Shown here one piece after another: positions 3,155-36,500 of a stretch of 64,000 nucleotides of DNA. The notes below the pieces were generated by a model that was not told where the DNA came from, did not search any database, and saw only the letters and a program-made list of their open reading frames with translations. This stretch comes from Prescottella equi (lineage in GTDB: Bacteria; Actinomycetota; Actinomycetes; Mycobacteriales; Mycobacteriaceae), in the NCBI RefSeq assembly GCF_020171745.1, contig NZ_JAIVAH010000004.1:1-64000 (forward strand), read 5' to 3'. Position numbers and translations under genes: made by a program. Every line of letters starts with the position of its first letter. Position 1 is the first letter of the stretch.

Positions 3155-4032
3155 CACTGCTGCTCATCCTTCACGATGCCCGCGAACAAATCGTTCTCCG
3201 GGATTGCGGTGTGTACCCGGGTCTTCGCCAACTCGAACTCTTCGGTCGGCCAGATCTTCTGCTGGATGTCGAGCGGCACCGCGAAGAAGGACCCGTTGGG
3301 ATCGATCTGGGTCGCATGGGCGCGCAGGGCGTCGTCGCGCTGCGGGAAGTAGTCGCCGCACTCGATCTGCGTGGTGACCCGGGCCATCAGATCGCCCTGT
3401 TCGGTCTTCCACTTCTTGAGCCACTCGGCCATCGGGAATTCCTCACCGCGGCGCTCGTACTCCTCCTGGAACTGGACCAGGCGCTTCCGGATGAACCCGT
3501 GCGAGTAGTAGACCTTCTGCACCTCCCACGGCTCGCCGGCGTCCGGGAACTGCTCCGGATCCCCGGCCGCGTCGTAGGCGGCCATCGACACCTCGTGGCA
3601 CTTGATGTGGTCCGGGTGCGGGTAGCCGCCGTTCTCGTCGTACGTGGTCATCACGTGCGGACGGAACTCGCGGATCACCTTGACCAGTGCCTCGGTGGGA
3701 ATCTCGAGCGGTTCGAGCGCGAAGCATCCCTCGGGCAGCGGCGGCTTGGGATCGCCCTCCGGCAGGCCGGAGTCGACGAACCCGAGCCACGTCTGCCGCA
3801 CCCCCAGGATGCGGGCGGCCTCGGCCATCTCCTCCTGCCGCACCTCGGTCATCCGCTCCCGGATGCCCGGCACGTCCATCGCCGGGTTGAGGATGTCGCC
3901 CCGCTCACCACCGGTGAGGGTCACCACGAGGACCTCGTTGCCCTCCGCGGCGTAGCGAGCCATCGTCGCAGCACCCTTGCTCGACTCGTCGTCGGGATGG
4001 GCATGTACGGCCATGAGTCGGAATCCGCTCAC
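3154..4032 (-). CDS. mca: Mycothiol S-conjugate amidase Mca
   Basis: 292 residues from GTG 4032, matching the family length. It begins [17 protein letters not shown]; the AHPDDE motif supplies the zinc ligands and catalytic Asp of the MshB/Mca LmbE-like fold. Further motifs are [13 protein letters not shown] (third zinc ligand) and [14 protein letters not shown]. The enzyme cleaves mycothiol S-conjugates to mercapturic acids and GlcN-inositol, detoxifying electrophiles and antibiotics in the cytosol. In-frame GTGs at 4044 and 4062 would add 4 or 10 residues. I chose 4032 because GAGGTG lies at a good distance and family N-termini begin there. It leads the operon with the next two genes. Confidence 0.95.
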
Positions 4033-4235
4033 GTGTGTCTTCACCTCAGCTTCGCGTGTCACCGTCGTGGCGTGTCACCTGCAGTGTCCGACCGCTACCA
4101 CTCGCGGGGCGCCGTCGTCCTTCCCCTATAGTTCCACCTGGCACATACGACCGTCTGTCGTACCCCCGCTACGCGCGGTAAACGGCGACTCCGACGGCCG
4201 CGCACAGCCCCCTTGACCGACGGCGCGAGAGCAGA

Positions 4236-4664
4236 GTGATGAGCAGTACCCCATCCCCGGACCGCTACGGAACCGCCCGACGACGGTCGGGTCCGCTGCC
4301 GTGGGGCAAGCTGCTGATGACCGGCCTCGTCGTTCTCGCCGGCATCGGAATCGCGTACATCGGCTACACGAAGTTCGCGGTCAAGGACGTCGAGGGCAAG
4401 CAGATCGCGTTCGACATCGTCGACGACCGGACCATGAACATCCAGTTCACCGTGACGCGCGACAACCCGTCCGAGCCCGCGGTCTGCATCATCCGAACCC
4501 GGTCCAAGGACGGCTCGGAGACCGGCCGCCGTGAGGTGTACGTCGGCCCGTCGGATTCGGACACCGTCGAGATCACCGCCCCGGTCTACGCCTCCAAGCC
4601 GCCCGCTATGGGCGATCTGTACGGATGCAGCACGACCGTTCCGGACTACCTTCACGCGGGCTGA
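4236..4664 (+). CDS. DUF4307 membrane protein
   Basis: 142 residues: a short Arg-rich cytoplasmic head, one transmembrane helix (about 28-47, LMTGLVVLAGIGIAYIGY) and an extracytoplasmic beta-rich domain with two Cys (about 90 and 135) that could form a disulfide. This is the DUF4307 family, found next to greA in mycobacteria. GTG 4236 and ATG 4239 are both possible starts. It is divergent from mca and ends in a hairpin before greA. Role unknown. Confidence 0.88.
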   Translation: MMSSTPSPDRYGTARRRSGPLPWGKLLMTGLVVLAGIGIAYIGYTKFAVKDVEGKQIAFDIVDDRTMNIQFTVTRDNPSEPAVCIIRTRSKDGSETGRREVYVGPSDSDTVEITAPVYASKPPAMGDLYGCSTTVPDYLHAG

Positions 4665-4669
4665 ACGGG

Positions 4670-4699
4670 CGACCGATCGGTCTTCGTTCCGATCGGTCG
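4670..4699 (+). terminator. Terminator of the DUF4307 gene
   Basis: Perfect 11-bp stem (4670-4680 with 4689-4699) and 8-nt loop, five bases after the stop codon and followed by AAAA. Each arm contains the palindrome CCGATCGG, so an alternative fold or a regulator binding site is also possible. Confidence 0.7.
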
Positions 4700-4715
4700 A
4701 AAACCCTCATCGTGC

Positions 4716-4754
4716 TAAAATAAGTCGATACACGGTTCCACTCGGAACCGTGTA
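4716..4754 (+). promoter_or_regulatory. Probable greA promoter with 5' hairpin
   Basis: TAAAAT at 4716-4721 is a good -10 hexamer; no clear -35 is visible. A transcript starting near 4728 would begin with a perfect 11-bp hairpin (4729-4739 with 4744-4754, 4-nt loop) and carry a leader of about 180 bases before greA. The hairpin may stabilise the mRNA or act as an attenuator. Confidence 0.45.
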
Positions 4755-4910
4755 TTGCTGCATTGACGGCAGGACGAGTCTGCTCACGCGGTGGGCGTAC
4801 CCGGGGGATTTCGCCACGGACTAGAGCCGGCCTGCCCGTTGATCGCTGCTGTTCGCAGCGATCTGCCGAGGGAGTCCACCCGGACTTCAACTACAAGGGA
4901 GTGATCGAGA

Positions 4911-5405
4911 ATGACCGAGACCCAGGTGACCTGGCTTACTCAGGAGTCTCACGACAGGCTCAAGAATGAGCTCGACCAGCTCATCGCCAATCGTCCGGTC
5001 ATTGCCGCCGAGATCAACGAGCGTCGCGAAGAGGGCGACCTCAAGGAGAACGGTGGCTACCACGCCGCTCGCGAGGAGCAGGGCCAGCAGGAGGCGCGCA
5101 TCCGCCAGCTGCAGGAGCTGCTGAACAACGCGAAGGTCGGCGAGGCCCCCACGCAGTCCGGTGTCGCGCTGCCCGGCTCGGTCGTCAAGGTCTACTACGA
5201 CGGTGACGAGTCCGACACCGAGACGTTCCTCATCGCGACCCGCGAAGAGGGCGCCCGCGACAACAAGCTCGAGGTCTACTCCCCCAACTCGCCGCTCGGT
5301 GGCGCGCTGCTGAACGCGAAGGTCGGCGAGACCCGCGAGTACACCCTGCCCAACGGCAGCCTGATGAAGGTCACGCTCATCAGCGCGGAGCCGTACCACG
5401 GCTGA
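4911..5405 (+). CDS. greA: Transcription elongation factor GreA
   Basis: 164 residues, typical length. The N-terminal coiled-coil begins [17 protein letters not shown] and carries at its tip the acidic residues that deliver Mg2+ to the RNA polymerase active site ([21 protein letters not shown]). The C-terminal FKBP-like domain ends [13 protein letters not shown]. GreA induces transcript cleavage in backtracked RNA polymerase. ATG follows AAGGGAG at 4896-4902. It is monocistronic, between a long leader and a terminator. Confidence 0.97.
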
Positions 5406-5496: not shown

Positions 5497-7368
5497 TCAG
5501 TTCAGAACGTCGATGACGTCCTCGGGTTCGACGGCGTCGCCGGTCAGCACGGCGAGCACCGCGTCCCGCTGATCCGGGGTGACCGGTTCGGCGCCACCGA
5601 GGACCTGCGTCCGCTCCCCGGTCGGCACGACCCGCGCGCACAGCAGATCTCCGACGGCCCATCCACCGTCCTCGACGACGGCCGTCTCGTCGGTGCCGAG
5701 ATCCCGCAGCGTCGCAGTCGTCCCGTCGACCACCGTCACCTCGTGCACCGACCGCCGCACCTGCAGCCAGCGGTCGGCCAGTGCGCGTTCGTCCGCCGGC
5801 AGCAGGACCCCACGCCGGGCGACGAACAGTTGGAACAGGCCGCCCTCGAACAGTGCGGTGTCGATCACGAGCGGCTCGTCGAACGCCCGCGCAACGGCCT
5901 CGTCATCGTCCCAGTGCGCGGCCCGACGCTGCGCCAGCCCCAGAACCAGGTCGAACAGCATCGTCGACTGCGCGTACAGCGTCGCCTTCTCGTACAACCA
6001 GTGCGCGCGGTCGTCGAGCGTGGCGTCGGCTTTGCCGAGGTGACACGCCTTGTACTTGCGTCCCGACCCACACCAGCACTGGTCGTTGCGGCCGAGTTCG
6101 GGATGCTCGGTGGGCGCGAACCGCGTCAGCACGTGGTGCAGACGTTCGTCCCGGCCGCCCTCGATGCGCCCGAGCAGCGACAGCCCCCGCTGCGCGTCGC
6201 CGCGATCGGACGCGATCTGAGCCAGCTCGAACAGCGCCGGCGTCCACTCCTCGTCCATCGCCGCTGCGTCCGCGAAGTGGCGTTCCGCCTCCAACACGTC
6301 ACCCAGGGTGTCCGCGGCCATCCCGGCCAGCCAGTGACCCGACGCCTTGGCTCGCCTCGGTCCTCTGCCGGACACCGCGAGTGCTGTCGTGTACAGCGCG
6401 GGGATGTAGTCGTCCTCGACCGCGTTGACCAGATCGAGCGCGGCGGCAGCTGCAGCCGGATCCTCGAGTCCGACAAAGGAATCCGCATCTTCACCGACCC
6501 GGCCACGGACCTCGTCGAGACCGAGCTCGTCGTCGTGCACGATGCCGACCAGCTGGACCAACGACACCACCGCGGCCGCCTCGTCCGGGTGCAACTCGTG
6601 GTCGCGTCCGACCAGCGCGACGTGAGACGCGAGGCGGTGTGCGTCGAAATCGAACCCGCGCGCCGCGACATAGTCGCCCTCGCGGTCGTAGCCCGCGGCC
6701 TCGATCAGCTCTCCGAGCGGCACCGTCGGCGCCGTGAACAGGGCATCGTCGTCCGCAAGCAGCTGCCAGGCAACGGTTTCCAGGTTGTCGGCACTGTCCA
6801 CGCCGACGATCCCGGCGAGCCGGTCGGCCATGCCAGGAGTCTCGACGAGATCGGCTCCGACCGAGGACAATTCGAGCGTCCCACCGGAACCGACCGTCAC
6901 CGCGACCACATCCCCGGACGAATAGCCCTGCAGTGCTTCGGATCCGAACAGAAGTCCGGCGCCGTCCGGGAAGTCCTCGTCCGCGATCCCGAGTGCCACG
7001 ATCTCGTCGGCGTCGTAGTCCGAGAACAGGACCCGGACCGGACCGTCGTCGTGAGCCATCGCCAGCAACACCAGCGGTGCCAGATCGGGGTCGGCGTGCA
7101 GCAGTCCCGACGCGACTTCGCCGTCCGACAGTCGATGGGTGAACACCCGGCCTTCCAGCAGCGTGTCCAGGACGGCATTGCGGCCGTCCGCGAGCAGCAC
7201 CACCTGGGGATGGTCGAGCAGTTCGACGAGCTCGGTCATCTCCTGTACCGAACCGTGTCCGGCATCGACGAGTCGACGCGTCCAGTCCTCGTTGGTCGAC
7301 GGGCCGCACTCACGCAGGTCGGCGATGGCAGCGGAGGTCAGGTCACGGGGATCGGGCGTCGCACTCAC
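5497..7368 (-). CDS. Large SEC-C motif protein, function unknown
   Basis: 623 residues starting at GTG 7368. It carries one clear SEC-C zinc-binding motif, CWCGSGRKYKACH, near residues 430-441. The region before it is acidic and helical with tetratricopeptide-like repeats (GHWLAGMAADTLGDVLEAE, LFELAQIASDRGDAQ). SEC-C motifs occur at the C-terminus of SecA and in many proteins that bind chaperones or nucleic acids. Here the motif is internal, with about 180 residues following. It starts ten bases before the end of the NlpC/P60 gene on the same strand, so co-transcription is likely. I do not recognise a specific function. Confidence 0.85.
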   Translation of the reverse strand: MSATPDPRDLTSAAIADLRECGPSTNEDWTRRLVDAGHGSVQEMTELVELLDHPQVVLLADGRNAVLDTLLEGRVFTHRLSDGEVASGLLHADPDLAPLVLLAMAHDDGPVRVLFSDYDADEIVALGIADEDFPDGAGLLFGSEALQGYSSGDVVAVTVGSGGTLELSSVGADLVETPGMADRLAGIVGVDSADNLETVAWQLLADDDALFTAPTVPLGELIEAAGYDREGDYVAARGFDFDAHRLASHVALVGRDHELHPDEAAAVVSLVQLVGIVHDDELGLDEVRGRVGEDADSFVGLEDPAAAAAALDLVNAVEDDYIPALYTTALAVSGRGPRRAKASGHWLAGMAADTLGDVLEAERHFADAAAMDEEWTPALFELAQIASDRGDAQRGLSLLGRIEGGRDERLHHVLTRFAPTEHPELGRNDQCWCGSGRKYKACHLGKADATLDDRAHWLYEKATLYAQSTMLFDLVLGLAQRRAAHWDDDEAVARAFDEPLVIDTALFEGGLFQLFVARRGVLLPADERALADRWLQVRRSVHEVTVVDGTTATLRDLGTDETAVVEDGGWAVGDLLCARVVPTGERTQVLGGAEPVTPDQRDAVLAVLTGDAVEPEDVIDVLN

Positions 7369-31577: not shown

Positions 31578-31699
31578 CCAGAACCGTACGGTCGCGACGC
31601 GTACCGAATCGGGACCAAAGCCCCATTCCAGACAAAAAGAACCTGGTCAGGGCCGGTTTCAGACCGAGCTTAGGGGATGCTACTTTCGGCGTGGCCGTT

Positions 31700-31718
31700 C
31701 GAGGTTTGGCTTGCCTTC
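31700..31718. promoter_or_regulatory. Possible IdeR/DtxR iron box ahead of efeU
   Basis: The 19 bases starting CGAGGTTTGGCTTGCC match 12 of 19 positions of the mycobacterial iron-box consensus, including the AGGTT-GGCT-CCT core. It lies 40 bases upstream of efeU, just downstream of TACTTT (31681-31686), a possible -10, where bound regulator could block transcription. Seen by eye only. Confidence 0.4.
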
Positions 31719-31757
31719 GTCGCCCGCGCCGCCCCGACTCGTAGCAGGAGCACAAGA

Positions 31758-32669
31758 GTGTCAGTCCTCGCCGCCGGCACCGCCGCGCCGTCCATCGCAA
31801 CCCAGTTGTTCGGCAGTGGCCTGATCGGTGTGCGCGAGGGGCTCGAGACCGGCATCGTCGTGATGATCCTGGTCGCCTTCCTGGTCAAGTCCGAGCGGCG
31901 CGACGCACTCAAATGGGTGTGGGTTGGCGTCGGCGCGGCCGTCGCGATGGTCGTCGCGATCTTCGTCGGCATCCACTTCGGCACCTCCACCGTCACCGGC
32001 ATGGCCGCCGAACTCATCAGCGGACTCGCGTCGCTCGTCGCCGTTGCGATCGTCACCGCGATGGTCCTGTGGATGCGCACCGCGGCGGCATCGATATCGG
32101 GACACCTGCGCGCCGGACTCGATCGCGCGCTGGCGATCGGCCCGGTGGCCGTCGCAACCATGGCGTTCTTCGCCGTCGGCCGCGAGGGCGTCGAAACCGC
32201 GCTGCTGCTCGTCGGCTACGCCGAGAACGCCGCCGGCAGCGCGTGGCCGCTCGTCGGCCTGCTGCTCGGCATCGCGGTCGCCGCCGTCCTGACCGTGCTG
32301 CTGTACGTCGGCGCCGTCCGGATCGACTTCGCCCGCTTCTTCCGCTACACCGGTGCCTTCCTCGTGGTCGTCGCGGCCGGGATCCTCGCGTACGGAGTCC
32401 GGGCACTGCAGATCGCCGGGTGGCTGCCCGGCGGATCGACGCTCGCGTTCGACATCTCGTCCGTGTTCGACACCTCCAGCTGGTACGGCACCGTCCTGCA
32501 GGGCATCTTCAACTTCCGTCCCGATCCGACCGTCCTCCAGGCGGTTGCCTGGGTGGCGTACCTCGTGATCGTGATGCCACTGTTCCTGCGCCCGGTGAAG
32601 CCGAAGGCCACTGCACCGCATACCGATCCGACGCCGACCGGCGATCCCGAACTCAACGCTTCCCGATGA
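31758..32669 (+). CDS. efeU: EfeU, FTR1-type iron permease
   Basis: 303 residues from GTG 31758, with GCAGGAG upstream; the longer frame lacks a ribosome site. About seven transmembrane helices carry two Fe-binding REGxE motifs, REGLETGIV (about 26) and REGVETALL (about 144). It transports ferric iron made by or delivered from EfeO/EfeB. Its stop overlaps the efeO start (ATGA). Confidence 0.95.
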   Translation: MSVLAAGTAAPSIATQLFGSGLIGVREGLETGIVVMILVAFLVKSERRDALKWVWVGVGAAVAMVVAIFVGIHFGTSTVTGMAAELISGLASLVAVAIVTAMVLWMRTAAASISGHLRAGLDRALAIGPVAVATMAFFAVGREGVETALLLVGYAENAAGSAWPLVGLLLGIAVAAVLTVLLYVGAVRIDFARFFRYTGAFLVVVAAGILAYGVRALQIAGWLPGGSTLAFDISSVFDTSSWYGTVLQGIFNFRPDPTVLQAVAWVAYLVIVMPLFLRPVKPKATAPHTDPTPTGDPELNASR

Positions 32670-33826
32670 CAGTCACCCGAAAGGTTCCGCTCGTGCGTCG
32701 TACCACCTCCGCGCTCGCCCTGCTCGCGATCGCTCCCCTCGCCCTCGCGGCGTGCACGTCCAAGTCGCCCGCGGACGCCGAGGCGATCACGGTGACCGCC
32801 ACCGACACCACGTGTGACATCTCGGGGAACTCGGCGGAGACCGGCAACACCACGTTCTCCATCACCAACAACGGGTCGAAGGTCACCGAGTTCTACGTCT
32901 TCGGTGCCGGCGATCGCGTGATGGGCGAGGTCGAGAACGTAGGACCGGGTCTGACCCGTCAGCTCATCGTCAACCTCGCCGAGTCCGGGACCTACCACAC
33001 CGCGTGCAAGCCTGGCATGGTCGGCAACGGCATCCGGGCCGAGTTCGTCGTCACCGGCGACTCGGTGGCCGCGACCGACCAGGACGGCCGCCTCACCGAG
33101 GCCGCCGCCGGGTACAAGCGTTACGTCGACAGCCAGCTCACCGCGCTGCAGGAGACCGTCGCCACGTTCGTCGCGTCGATCAAGGCCGGCGACATCGCCG
33201 CCGCGAAGGCCCAGTACCCGCTGACCCGCACGTACTACGAGCGCATCGAGCCCATCGCCGAGAGCTTCCCCGACGACCTCGACCCGCGCATCGACCTGCG
33301 CGAGGTCGACGTCGAGCCGGGCTGGAACTGGACCGGCTTCCACCGGCTCGAGAAGGACCTGTGGGTTCAGGGCCTGCAGCCCGACACCAACGCGATCGCC
33401 GACCAGCTCGTCGCCGACATCCAGGAGCTCGCCGACGGTGTCGCGGCCCCGGACTTCGTCGTCGACCCGATCCAGGTGGCCGGCGGCGCCCAGACGCTGC
33501 TCGACGAGATCGCGCGCACCAAGATCACCGGCGAGGAGGACATCTTCTCGCACACCGACCTGTACGACTTCCAGGCCAACGCCGACGGCTCGCAGGCCGC
33601 GATCGCGTCGCTGCGCCCGATCCTCGACGACCGCAACCCGGAACTGGCCGCGCGCATCGACCAGCGTTTCGCCGACCTCGACGCCGAACTCGCGCAGTTC
33701 CGTCAGGGCGACGGGTTCGTCTCCTACGAGACCGTGACCGAGCCGCAGCGTCAGGCGCTGTCCCAGAAGATCGACGCGTTGTCCGCCGAAGTGAGCCAGG
33801 TGCAGGGTGTCGTCGCAGGACAGTAA
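32666..33826 (+). CDS. efeO: EfeO, iron-binding lipoprotein
   Basis: 386 residues. The signal peptide has lipobox LALAAC (Cys about 29), then a cupredoxin-like domain (about 40-130) and an M75-type helical domain containing the HxxE metal motif FHRLEKDLW. It presents iron to EfeU at the outer face of the membrane. ATG 32666 overlaps the efeU stop; GTG 32693, right before the signal peptide proper, is a plausible alternative start. Confidence 0.95.
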   Translation: MTVTRKVPLVRRTTSALALLAIAPLALAACTSKSPADAEAITVTATDTTCDISGNSAETGNTTFSITNNGSKVTEFYVFGAGDRVMGEVENVGPGLTRQLIVNLAESGTYHTACKPGMVGNGIRAEFVVTGDSVAATDQDGRLTEAAAGYKRYVDSQLTALQETVATFVASIKAGDIAAAKAQYPLTRTYYERIEPIAESFPDDLDPRIDLREVDVEPGWNWTGFHRLEKDLWVQGLQPDTNAIADQLVADIQELADGVAAPDFVVDPIQVAGGAQTLLDEIARTKITGEEDIFSHTDLYDFQANADGSQAAIASLRPILDDRNPELAARIDQRFADLDAELAQFRQGDGFVSYETVTEPQRQALSQKIDALSAEVSQVQGVVAGQ

Positions 33827-35120
33827 TCCCCAGAGCAGTAACCAGCAGGACGGCGACAGCCGGCCCGAGCCACGTCCGGGCCTGTCCCGACGGCGCCTCT
33901 TCGGCGCCGTCGGGGCGGGCGCGGTGTTGGCCGGCGCGGGCGTCGCGGTGGGCCGTCTGACGGCCCCCGAGGCGTCTGCGTCGACCTCCGAGGTGGTGCC
34001 GTTCCGCGGCGCCAATCAGGCCGGAATCGTCACGGCCGCACAGGATCGCATGCACTTCGTCGCGTTCGACGTCATCACCGACTCGCGCGACGAACTGGTG
34101 GCGATGCTGAAGAAGTGGACCGAGATGGCCGCGCGGATGACCGCCGGCGAGGAGGCCGCCGAGGACGGCGCGATCGGCGCGGGCGAGTACAAGCCGCCCA
34201 CCGATACCGGCGAGGCCCTGGACCTGCACGCGTCGAAGCTGACGCTCACGATCGGGTTCGGACCGTCGCTGTTCGAGGCGAGCGGCAAGGACCGCTTCGG
34301 GATCGCCGACAAGAAGCCGGCAGCGTTGACCGACCTTCCCAAGTTCACCGGTGACGCGCTCGAACCCGCCCGCTCAGGCGGCGACATCGCGATCCAGGCC
34401 TGCGCCGACGACCCCCAGGTCGCGGTGCACGCGGTGCGCAACCTGGCCCGTGTCGGCTTCGGCGTGGTGGCGGTGCGCTGGTCGCAGCTCGGGTTCGGCC
34501 GCACGTCGTCGACGTCGACGAGCCAGACGACGCCGCGAAACCTGTTCGGGTTCAAGGACGGAACGCGCAACATCAAGGCCGAGGATCCATCGGCGCTGTC
34601 GGAGTTCGTGTGGGTGGACCCGCAGGACGACCAGGCGTGGATGGCGGGCGGCTCGTACCTGGTGGCCCGACGCATCCGCATGCTGATCGAGCCGTGGGAT
34701 CGCACCACGCTGCACGAGCAGGAGCGGGTGTTCGGACGCAGCAAGGGCAGCGGCGCACCGCTGGGCCGCAAGGACGAGTTCGACGACCTGCAGCTCGACG
34801 CCAAGGGGGCGGGCGGCAAGCCCGTGATCGACAAGGACGCGCACGTGCGCCTGGCGTCGGCAGAGGAGCTGAACGGCATCCAGATCCTGCGTCGCGGCTA
34901 CAACTTCACCGACGGCACAGACGGTTTCGGGCATCTCGACGCCGGACTGTTCTTCATCGCGTACTGCCGCGATCCGCAGAAGCAATTCGTGCCGATGCAG
35001 CAGAACCTCGCCCGCAACGATGCACTGAACGAGTACATCAAGCACGTCGGCTCCGCGGTCTTCGCGGTGCCGCCGGGTGTCGGCGAGGGTGACTACTGGG
35101 GGTCGACGCTGTTCAGCTGA
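33807..35120 (+). CDS. efeB: EfeB, Tat-exported DyP-type peroxidase
   Basis: 437 residues. The twin-arginine signal SRRRLFGAVGAGAVLAGAGVAVG shows export in folded, haem-loaded form. DyP motif FGFKDGTRN supplies the distal Asp, GGSYLVARRIRMLIEPWDR the distal Arg region, and DAHVRLA the likely haem-ligating His. EfeB is thought to oxidise Fe(II) or take iron from haem for EfeO/EfeU. The start GTG 33807 lies 20 bases inside efeO, supporting coupled translation. Confidence 0.95.
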   Translation: MSSQDSNPQSSNQQDGDSRPEPRPGLSRRRLFGAVGAGAVLAGAGVAVGRLTAPEASASTSEVVPFRGANQAGIVTAAQDRMHFVAFDVITDSRDELVAMLKKWTEMAARMTAGEEAAEDGAIGAGEYKPPTDTGEALDLHASKLTLTIGFGPSLFEASGKDRFGIADKKPAALTDLPKFTGDALEPARSGGDIAIQACADDPQVAVHAVRNLARVGFGVVAVRWSQLGFGRTSSTSTSQTTPRNLFGFKDGTRNIKAEDPSALSEFVWVDPQDDQAWMAGGSYLVARRIRMLIEPWDRTTLHEQERVFGRSKGSGAPLGRKDEFDDLQLDAKGAGGKPVIDKDAHVRLASAEELNGIQILRRGYNFTDGTDGFGHLDAGLFFIAYCRDPQKQFVPMQQNLARNDALNEYIKHVGSAVFAVPPGVGEGDYWGSTLFS

Positions 35121-35226
35121 GCCGGACCTGCCCACGCCGGCGGAGGAATGTCTCGGTATGGACTGCAAGTGGTCCCGATTCGCCCCACTGTGTCCGCATC
35201 GACCGCTTCGGGTAGAAGGGGGGCAC

Positions 35227-35376
35227 ATGCAGAGCCAGTTCGACGAACTCGCCGATCTCTACGAGGGAACGGCCGGCCGGCCGTTCCGGAAGCACCTGGA
35301 GATCCCCAACGTGCTGGCCACGCTCGGGGACCGGGAAGGACGTGATGTCCTCGACTTCGGCTGCGGCAATGGGATT
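35227..35376 (+). pseudogene. 5' remnant of a SAM-dependent methyltransferase
   Basis: Begins with AAGGGGG and ATG 35227 (MQSQFDELADLYEG) and runs through the SAM-binding motif VLDFGCGNGI, then changes abruptly into the transposase fragment on the other strand. Only about 50 of the usual 230-260 residues remain. Upstream signals look intact, so the gene was functional until cut by the rearrangement at about 35376. The frame runs on for 22 foreign codons to a stop at 35445. Confidence 0.85.
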
Positions 35377-35455
35377 CTGCCATGGGCAGTGCGGTTTGAT
35401 GAACTTCTGACGGATGCCATGCTCGGCGCAGACCGGACGCAATGACCACCGGTTC
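35375..35455 (-). pseudogene. IS481-type transposase fragment, 3' part
   Basis: The minus strand encodes VCAEHGIRQKFIKPHCPWQN, the segment just before the catalytic Glu region (…PWQNGKVER) of IS481-family DDE transposases. The match stops exactly where the methyltransferase remnant begins. The downstream catalytic Glu and C-terminus are missing. Confidence 0.8.
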
Positions 35456-35480
35456 GGACTACGAGAAAGAGCTGTAAAAG

Positions 35481-35984
35481 ATGCGAGCAGATATCGAACG
35501 CGCTGCCCAGGCGGTGCGCGCGGCCGCTGAGTTCGACTGGACGTGGACCGTCAATGACCTGCCGCCGTTCTGCGGTCAGGTCGGCTGGCAGGTCTGCGGC
35601 CTCGATGAGCAGTTTCCAGCAGCGGTGACCAATTTCGAAGTCAATCGCCCGGATGTGTCGGTGTCCGTCGCGGACATATCGACAACCGACTTGTCGCGAG
35701 CGATCGATAATATCTCCTTCCGTGCCAGTGATGTGGTTCTCGGTCGGAGCGACTTGGAGCCGGAGCTGGATGAAGTGTTCGATGCACTCGTGCAGCGGAT
35801 GTTCGAACTGCTCGGGCAGCGGCCCACGGATTGGTGGATCGAACCGTCCCGCGGCCTGCGCTGGGACCTTCCGGGCGTGGTGGTGAGGGCCAAGATCGGT
35901 GTCTCATCGGTCTGGGTGTATCTGGTCAGTCCTGCGTACCAGCAATGGTGCGACGAAATCGAGCAGAGCGCCGAAGATGAGTAG
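35481..35984 (+). CDS. DUF6301-like protein inside a transposase scar
   Basis: 167 residues, acidic, no signal peptide or membrane segment. It begins MRADIERAAQAVRAAAEFDWTW; Trp- and Asp-rich motifs (RPTDWWIEPSRGLRWDLPGVVV, VWVYLVSPAYQQWCDE) resemble the DUF6301 family of Nocardia/Rhodococcus, often near secreted polymorphic toxins and suspected to be immunity-like. That assignment is from memory and needs a profile search. ATG 35481 follows GAAAGAG. Pieces of one IS481-type transposase lie 26 bases before and 19 bases after it, both on the minus strand. No toxin gene is adjacent. Confidence 0.8.
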   Translation: MRADIERAAQAVRAAAEFDWTWTVNDLPPFCGQVGWQVCGLDEQFPAAVTNFEVNRPDVSVSVADISTTDLSRAIDNISFRASDVVLGRSDLEPELDEVFDALVQRMFELLGQRPTDWWIEPSRGLRWDLPGVVVRAKIGVSSVWVYLVSPAYQQWCDEIEQSAEDE

Positions 35985-36002
35985 ACGTGAGGTCGGTTGA
36001 GG

Positions 36003-36131
36003 CAGGTGGCGCCTTTCTCGTCCGGCAGGACCTCCGAGTAGGCGAGCCTGGAATGGTCGTCGACGAGCGAGTGAACGTAGTCGAATCCAACCTTTGTCGA
36101 GTAGTCCCGCTCCCGGTGCTCGTCTCGGGAG
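36003..36131 (-). pseudogene. IS481-type transposase fragment, middle part
   Basis: The minus strand encodes VGFDYVHSLVDDHSRLAYSE followed by VLPDEKGATC, the block around the second catalytic Asp of IS481-type transposases. It is preceded by RDEHRERDYSTK. The N-terminal domain is missing upstream. Compared with full-length family members, roughly 40-50 residues are missing between this piece and the piece at 35375-35455. The DUF6301-like gene lies in their place. Confidence 0.85.
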
Positions 36132-36296
36132 CCGGGTACATCTAGAAGGGACTTGTTGCGCGGCTACTGGGAAAGGCCGCATGCATCGATCCTGAACTGC
36201 CGCAAGCCGTGACGTCCGGACCCTGCTGATAGAGTCCTCGCCATGGATATCGAGGTCGACAGAATCTAGCCACCGGACTGCCGGTGGCGTTGCCGA

Positions 36297-36415
36297 TCAG
36301 GCGCGGATCGCGCCTCGGTTGACGACCCATGCCCTTTTCCGGGCCAACCCCGGCATGTCCGCCTTCGCGCCGATCACGCTTCCCGTGTGCACAGCGATGC
36401 CGCCCTTGCCGGACT
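36297..36415 (-). pseudogene. Coding remnant of unknown protein
   Basis: Between an in-frame TAG (about 36411-36413) and the TGA at 36297-36299 the minus strand reads SGKGGIAVHTGSVIGAKADM, then PGLARKRAWVVNRGAIRA. The clean protein-like composition suggests the 3' end of a real gene cut off upstream. No family recognised. It lies in the 370 bases between the transposase scar and the ABC-F gene, which otherwise hold nothing clear. Confidence 0.4.
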
Positions 36416-36500
36416 ACACATATCTGTCCCGGTGACCTCTCGTGATCGGTCGTTCCCTCGACCCTGCGCATCAGCAACTTCACGAAAGGGACGGCAACAC

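Follow-up and report, generated by a model that had tools for sequence, protein, structure and literature searches.

Introduction

Orphan immunity genes and prophage-borne polymorphic toxins are both already established, as the published accounts describe them (PMC5361080, PMC10470768, PMC9934374, PMC5576092). In Vibrio cholerae, the orphan immunity arrays of the type VI secretion system (T6SS) are reported to hold immunity genes kept after the effector was displaced, with illegitimate recombination as the proposed route (PMC5361080). For Tde/Tdi of Bacteroidales, acquired interbacterial defence clusters are described in which orphan immunity to a nuclease is carried on mobile elements, with protection demonstrated by assay (PMC10470768). 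Prophages of Mycobacterium abscessus are reported to carry polymorphic toxin-immunity cassettes that are swapped between prophages (PMC9934374), and MuF polymorphic toxins, encoded in temperate phage genomes, are described as mostly having a small gene downstream (PMC5576092). Here, we analysed a gene of the DUF6301 family lying among the remains of an IS481 insertion sequence in a 64,000-nucleotide stretch of Prescottella equi DNA (G000:C4:1-64000; hereafter, the window), which is part of a 441-kb contig in a 5.49-Mb draft genome of 46 contigs. Our results suggest that this is probably an orphan immunity gene against a PD-(D/E)xK-like polymorphic toxin, captured into an IS481 copy within a methyltransferase gene.

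Results

The DUF6301 gene of the window (35481-35984, + strand; 504 bp, 167 amino acids) was intact, as a first-pass annotation had stated, and a hidden Markov model search matched its product to PF19818 (DUF6301) over profile positions 1-137 of 137 (E = 2.5e-25; 89.6 bits against a cut-off of 27.2). The same annotation had raised the question of a matching toxin in the genome and its relatives. In the same-genus genomes G009 and G007, homologues with 91.6-92.8% amino acid identity to the window protein (92.8% for G009) were located directly downstream, on the same strand, of genes for proteins of 868 and 1019 amino acids, respectively. The large protein consists of a proline-rich N-terminal part, a hydrophobic stretch, a repeat region (G007) and a C-terminal region with GTHDIVAVKNGEVMVIEAKGG. 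Eight such predicted toxins could be aligned over a core with a D ... (E/D)xK pattern, which we take to be the PD-(D/E)xK motif; D151 and K166 were invariant and the elements of the catalytic pattern occurred in the expected order. Past this core, the same eight proteins shared a common C-terminal tail in which an SL motif was conserved; this tail could serve as a signal for docking or export. The tail often reads (D/N)(Q/E)S(L/M) followed by a beta-like stretch (L083, L081, L157, L160, L159, L161, L162, L166, L171, L172 and L201).

The association between toxin and DUF6301 gene was not confined to these two genomes. A toxin query of the type found with the window homologue (type 1; P0003) matched 11 loci in nine of 401 genomes of the family. 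Seven of these loci contained the nuclease-like region and the sequence downstream of it, three contained the toxin tail only (G008 at 1.0 Mb, BP22 and IEGM 1359, in each case beside a type-1 orphan), and that of G372 ended at the contig end. A DUF6301 gene followed immediately downstream in all 10 scorable P0003 loci. The query is independent of DUF6301, yet nine of these 10 loci had an earlier DUF6301 match and only G294:C1 was new. When loci with a nuclease-like toxin were considered, Nocardia included, a DUF6301 gene lay within approximately 100 bp behind the toxin in 11 of 11 scorable cases (G009, G007, two in G294, two in G166, two in G075, the viral contigs L171 and L172, and the G008 slot described below); a twelfth, G372, runs off its contig and could not be scored. 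This tally mixes ascertainments, since some of its loci (L171, L172, the second G075 locus and the G008 slot) had come to light through DUF6301 or in retrieved sequence stretches. Tandem DUF6301 genes were also seen. In viral contig L171, positions 3624-5285 hold a displaced toxin tail and two further DUF6301-like genes behind a complete toxin-immunity pair, that is, a sequential displacement array. DUF6301 as a whole occurred in 23 of 397 genomes of the order. At the Nocardia loci L116, L117, L118 and L141, a proline-rich protein precedes the DUF6301 gene, with a small gene of approximately 94-97 amino acids in between in at least two of them; these proline-rich proteins perhaps represent another toxin class or have another function.

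In G007, G008, G009 and viral contig G1073, the toxin-DUF6301 pair occupies a single variable slot in an apparently headless phage-tail island. In G009, G007 and G1073, this slot lies between an amidase-type endolysin and a siphophage tail module composed of a tail terminator, a major tail protein, chaperones, minor tail proteins, Sipho_Gp37 and fibres; further out, past the endolysin, come an XRE-like regulator and a metalloprotease of the M78 type (coverage of this side being partial in G007). When 17 open reading frames (ORFs) of the G007 and G009 islands, not including all of the small ones, were searched against PHROGs, 14 had a match and three had none. The best matches were to regulator, metallo-protease, endolysin, and tail terminator or tail families, plus one of a 116-amino-acid protein to phrog_240 ('head protein'), and two fibre genes had a lower-ranking match to a 'head and packaging' family as well. 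Apart from that single 'head protein' match, no capsid, portal, terminase or integrase was found among these 17 ORFs. A tape-measure-like gene of only 132 amino acids is kept at 93-97% identity in all four islands (L174 909-1304; L081 14515-14910; L194 14866-15261; L201 16639-17034), which raises the question of whether the tails are very short or the tape measure has been replaced; the Nocardia G166 and G294 islands have a gap of 1.5-1.7 kb at the tape-measure position.

The contents of the slot differ among these relatives, which carry one of at least three toxin-immunity alleles. The G008 island is the same element, most of its genes being 86-98% identical to those of G009, and its slot holds a 1006-amino-acid toxin whose C-terminal end differs, with a different DUF6301 type behind it; a third toxin-DUF6301 allele occupies the slot of G1073. 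The G008 and G1073 toxins share 71% identity over 549 amino acids of the N-terminal part and diverge C-terminally, and their DUF6301 proteins are 39% identical. The G007 and G009 toxins share 80% identity over 460 amino acids of the C-terminal part, and their DUF6301 proteins are 92% identical. The type of immunity protein thus goes with the toxin end. Identity in Nocardia G166 and G294 is 80-93% for most tail genes and approximately 40% for the fibres, and the toxin and immunity genes are at the other end of the island. No query tail genes were detected near four toxin loci (one in G294, one in G166 and two in G075) within the stretches fetched, and the tail genes of viral contig G1072 are approximately 20 kb from its toxin; the link between toxin and tail is therefore frequent but not universal.

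Besides the window gene, the genome from which the window was taken contains two more DUF6301 genes, which form a tandem pair at C7:150791-151975 among genes that, by eye, resemble housekeeping genes. The proteins of all three are mutually only 33-43% identical, and each fits a different slot allele (window gene to G009, 92.8%; C7a to G008, 92.3% over 156 amino acids; C7b to G1073, 83.7% over 153 amino acids). No toxin was found in this genome with the type-1 toxin query or with a profile of the eight toxins (A2). Its only Sipho_Gp37 is 41% identical to that of the island and belongs to another element. From these searches, the genome seems to lack island and toxin and yet to keep an immunity gene for each of three alleles. 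Within the genus, DUF6301 was present in five of 14 genomes, three of which are island genomes (Gp37 at least 94% identical; the weaker Gp37 of G006 was left out). G008 also carries a type-1 orphan and G009 also carries type-2-like orphans, and the type-1 orphans of IEGM 1359, BP22 and G008 retain the toxin tails mentioned above. Among 72,556 plasmid records, 13 contained DUF6301, 12 of them over at least 80% of its length (limit 1e-2), and none contained the type-1 toxin (limit 1e-5). Only the last 40 residues of the type-2 toxin were found on plasmids, in two records that both bear an adjoining DUF6301 gene (NZ_CP133191.1 2701-3360; NZ_CP034154.1 49962-50659). These are decapitated pairs, in the same arrangement as in type 1.

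In the window, the DUF6301 gene is part of a unit (35454-36002, + strand) comprising the gene with approximately 27 bp upstream, including a likely ribosome-binding site, and 18 bp downstream. The unit is flanked by two pieces of an IS481 transposase on the - strand, one from its C-terminal side (piece 1, 35375-35453; 67 of 79 positions identical to the intact IS481 copy L109 of G007) and one from its N-terminal side (piece 2, 36003-36121; 101 of 119). Both are colinear with L109 on one strand (BLAST E values of 5e-21 and 1e-34; 85% identity overall), in agreement with the first-pass description of two pieces of one IS481-type transposase. The right order and the single element type argue against an origin from different elements. 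The spacing between gene and pieces had been given as 26 and 19 bases, close to the 27 and 18 measured here; the estimate of 40-50 missing transposase residues was too high, because the 89 bp of L109 absent between the pieces correspond to approximately 30. Piece 2 (a 60-amino-acid fragment) matched NF033577 at 27.4 bits (E = 2.2e-6), under the 224-bit cut-off as expected for debris, and piece 1 alone gave a weak match (E = 0.13). Beyond piece 2 comes the 15-bp tip of an IS481 terminal inverted repeat with CTAG (36131-36145, - strand), a few bases from methyltransferase DNA; the repeat also occurs beside IS481 transposases in L026, L027, L109 and L110. No further copy of either piece was found in the draft genome.

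This debris interrupts a predicted S-adenosylmethionine methyltransferase gene. The truncated gene (35227-35445, + strand) consists of the 5' part, homologous up to 35375, and a frame that enters the IS481 sequence and stops at 35443-35445; homology resumes in a 3' remnant (36150 to approximately 36235, + strand) that matches G002 (L089) from position 2709 on. Methyltransf_23 scored only 16.5 bits on the truncated gene, under the cut-off. Homologues of the gene are open in two same-genus genomes (246 amino acids in G002 and 247 in G010), and the 774 bp at 35376-36149 of the window occupy the place of 529 bp in G002. In G001, G004, G006 and G009, the two flanks almost meet with no methyltransferase match between them, and in G003 and G007 the methyltransferase matches are partial or weaker. 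The broken gene with IS481 debris inside it indicates an earlier insertion of an IS481 copy into the methyltransferase gene. At the block, no target duplication was apparent, and the junction overlap is at most approximately one base. A rearrangement reached by an IS481 copy without target duplication is described in Pseudomonas fluorescens, and adjacent deletions are given there as one usual cause of missing target duplications (PMC11708052). A composite transposon of two IS481 copies is less likely, given that the pieces do not overlap and only 89 bp are lacking.

The same unit was found in other contexts with different ends. The sequence from 35445, 35454 or 35457 to 36003 matched eight plasmid records from Rhodococcus and Prescottella equi at approximately 94-95% DNA identity; the matches started at query position 346, 355 or 358 and ended at 904 (905 in one). 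At the DNA level, the unit was present in four of 14 genus genomes, namely our own and, at approximately 94-95% identity, G007, G008 and G009, and further in R. qingshengii IEGM 1359 and Rhodococcus sp. BP22 (two loci each), and one IMG/VR contig carries a homologue at 90% amino acid identity. From BLAST alignments and inspection by eye, left breakpoints lie at approximately -22, -25, -37, -44 and -92 and further out at -173 to -314, and right breakpoints at approximately +19, +29, +74, +79, +120 and +157. The window copy is among the most stripped, and it shares its right end with qingA29 (+19), as NJ530, DN22 and IEGMa share theirs (+79). A cassette with its own ends, suggested by the eight plasmid matches stopping at nearly one base, was dropped because the aligned flanks show varying breakpoints. 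The repeat TAGRTGTACCCGGC, considered as its attachment site, was also dropped because it adjoins ordinary IS481 transposases. It occurred six times in 114,356 bases of 15 loci, always within 220 bp of the DUF6301 gene, whereas simple shuffling of the bases, at a similar total length, gave 1.25 per set; as NJ530, DN22 and IEGMa share one junction, the six occurrences represent approximately three independent events.

Several smaller features concern these copies. Approximately 79 bp past the DUF6301 stop in L029, L030, L031, L034 and L035, an element, presumably IS1380-like, seems to begin at the CTAG/CCAG that in other copies marks the junction between the gene and an IS481 end. The site right behind the immunity gene thus seems to be an insertion hot spot. 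An apparent IS481 reduced to two tips (approximately 28 bp) between two CTAG sites adjoins the immunity gene in L032 (approximately 5577-5612). On four conjugative Prescottella equi plasmids, the homologue adjoins a Fic gene (L078 2037-2540, L079, L025 and L080). The copy on plas2 (L025) is intact, and the annotations of both plas2 and pWY give a full-length gene. An internal stop interrupts the one on pVAPA1216, and that of NC_014247 falls into two pieces with a shortened annotation. Just upstream of the methyltransferase gene in the window (31677-35120) are three genes for an FTR1-like permease, an EfeO-like protein and a DyP-type peroxidase, which we take to be an EfeUOB-type iron uptake operon.

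Discussion

The immunity reading is well supported by genomic context. For this branch at any rate, DUF6301 is predicted from sequence to be the immunity partner of a polymorphic toxin with a PD-(D/E)xK-nuclease-like C-terminal part. It would most likely act by binding and blocking the C-terminal nuclease domain of the incoming toxin, and the bearer would thereby be safe from island-bearing relatives. The suggestion in the first-pass annotation of an orphan immunity gene captured by recombination is supported by the toxin adjacency in relatives, by breakpoints that differ around the same open frame and by a methyltransferase gene that is intact elsewhere. In the proposed sequence of events, the window copy would have been captured by illegitimate repair or recombination, stripped to little beyond its frame and ribosome-binding site, into the IS481 within the methyltransferase gene; the unit would have taken the place of 89 bp of the transposase, and the C-terminal side of the IS481 would have been lost together with 529 bp of the methyltransferase gene.

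Several observations weigh against this interpretation. No Pfam toxin domain was found above the cut-off in the eight toxins. The best guess was Hjc, a Holliday-junction resolvase (PF01870; 17.1 bits in G007 and 13.9 in G009 against a cut-off of 21.1), with no Hjc match in the other six, and a PDB profile search gave nothing meaningful. By eye, only two of 33 other DUF6301 loci (L045 and L128) have a PD-(D/E)xK-like protein just upstream, the flanks viewed being 1.5 kb for 22 of them, and the Nocardia genes of L116, L118 and L141 lie behind proteins without a Pfam match; the DUF6301 family may therefore do more than neutralise this toxin. C7b reads on to 229 amino acids compared with 166 in its match, which may point to a disturbed 3' end. 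The type-2 and type-3 toxins were absent from the 162,308 bases of the own genome searched for them, the rest being covered for these types only by profile A2. Hypervariable codons are weak evidence of coevolution because synonymous changes cluster too. The type-1 copies are under moderate constraint, at roughly half the neutral level, and neither promoter nor terminator came up in 35050-36500 in a simple sigma-70 scan, which was not designed for actinobacteria.

The moderate constraint and the lack of a promoter-like site would suit a gene whose immunity role lies only in its ancestry and which, neither expressed nor selected, became fixed by chance as a silent passenger of the decayed IS481. 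That only approximately 27 bp were kept upstream, that one of 14 type-1 copies has an internal stop and that the NC_014247 copy is split point the same way. However, the other 13 type-1 frames are intact although approximately 4% of random changes in the gene would be stops, the type-1 copies show 77 amino-acid changes to 54 others where neutrality would give 0.704:0.255, and the intact window frame is preceded by an AAAGAG motif. Moreover, one genome holds three matched orphan types, and the truncated methyltransferase gene on the same strand ends 35 bp upstream, an arrangement in which the window gene may be transcribed from the methyltransferase promoter. We regard silent passage as possible but doubtful.

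The remaining alternatives concern what DUF6301 is and how it moves. A chaperone or loading adaptor of the toxin would be difficult to reconcile with the spread of DUF6301 on plasmids without whole toxin, with tandem DUF6301 genes and with a DUF6301 type that tracks the C-terminus of the toxin and not its N-terminal part; such a role appears improbable. It is still harder to see a gene for phage defence or prophage regulation that has nothing to do with neutralising a toxin: this would account for DUF6301 in three IMG/VR contigs and in tail islands and prophage-like contigs, but there was no PADLOC match, the gene stood behind the toxin in every scorable toxin locus, and DUF6301 types match toxin ends. 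Equally remote is the possibility that site-specific recombination, or a transposase in trans, mobilises the unit as a cassette with ends of its own. The same gene does recur at approximately 94% DNA identity in many contexts, with several coinciding right ends (+19 in the window and qingA29; +79 in NJ530, DN22 and IEGMa), but left and right ends vary widely, inspection by eye revealed no terminal repeats bounding the unit, and the coinciding ends are accounted for by common descent and by IS481 or IS1380 elements that end at a single CTAG.

An orphan immunity gene, probably captured by recombination, remains the preferred reading, and it invites a broader, tentative proposal, which we consider possible but on the unlikely side: headless non-contractile tail particles of Rhodococcus-Nocardia relatives might carry swappable nuclease toxins as cargo, with DUF6301 genes as dispersed antidotes, the set in our genome being directed against at least three slot alleles, and plasmids, some of them conjugative, trading the antidotes singly. 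Delivery of the toxin by a tail particle is speculative. Colicins are released by lysis, and by analogy a colicin-like release by lysis would fit the same island gene set. If the tail island does deliver the toxin, it would represent a Gram-positive, non-contractile counterpart of cargo-carrying injection particles.

Our literature search found no paper naming DUF6301 or PF19818, and a search on tailocins with Rhodococcus or Nocardia returned nothing that looked related. The DUF6301 assignment, the toxin that goes with it, the common slot and the set of matched orphans seem to be new. The analysis gives a domain of unknown function a proposed role and a proposed physical partner, and it predicts which toxin each of the three stray DUF6301 genes should block, which provides a natural three-by-three design for cross-protection experiments. 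It also illustrates how a putative antidote gene can persist as a bare reading frame, scattered over plasmids, chromosomes and a dead insertion sequence.

F-type tailocins lack capsid and terminase genes and combine a regulator with genes for lysis and a siphophage tail. The island, known here from its genes, resembles them in having regulator, lysis and siphophage tail genes and differs in its toxin-immunity slot and its 132-amino-acid tape-measure-like gene. Like the MuF toxins, the toxin is phage-associated and followed by a small downstream gene; MuF toxins are described in the DNA-packaging module, whereas the present toxin is located by lysis and tail genes, with no packaging gene seen (PMC5576092). 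As in the M. abscessus cassettes, toxin and immunity gene are borne by prophages and are exchanged as a cassette. The toxins in that report typically have an N-terminal WXG-100 motif and a separate WXG100 gene, for which there was no Pfam match in the eight toxins; unlike those cassettes, some loci here are in apparently headless tail islands and the matched orphans are dispersed (PMC9934374). With Tde/Tdi, the DUF6301 genes share the character of orphan immunity, on mobile elements, to a nuclease, which is a predicted one here. Tde/Tdi is described with the toxin family Ntox15, T6SS delivery and assayed protection, whereas the present toxin, predicted from sequence, belongs to another family (PMC10470768). 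The V. cholerae arrays are alike in the presence of an immunity gene without its effector and in the proposed illegitimate recombination; as described, those arrays are located in secretion clusters, whereas the DUF6301 orphans occur as single genes on plasmids, on chromosomes and, in the window, inside an IS481 (PMC5361080).
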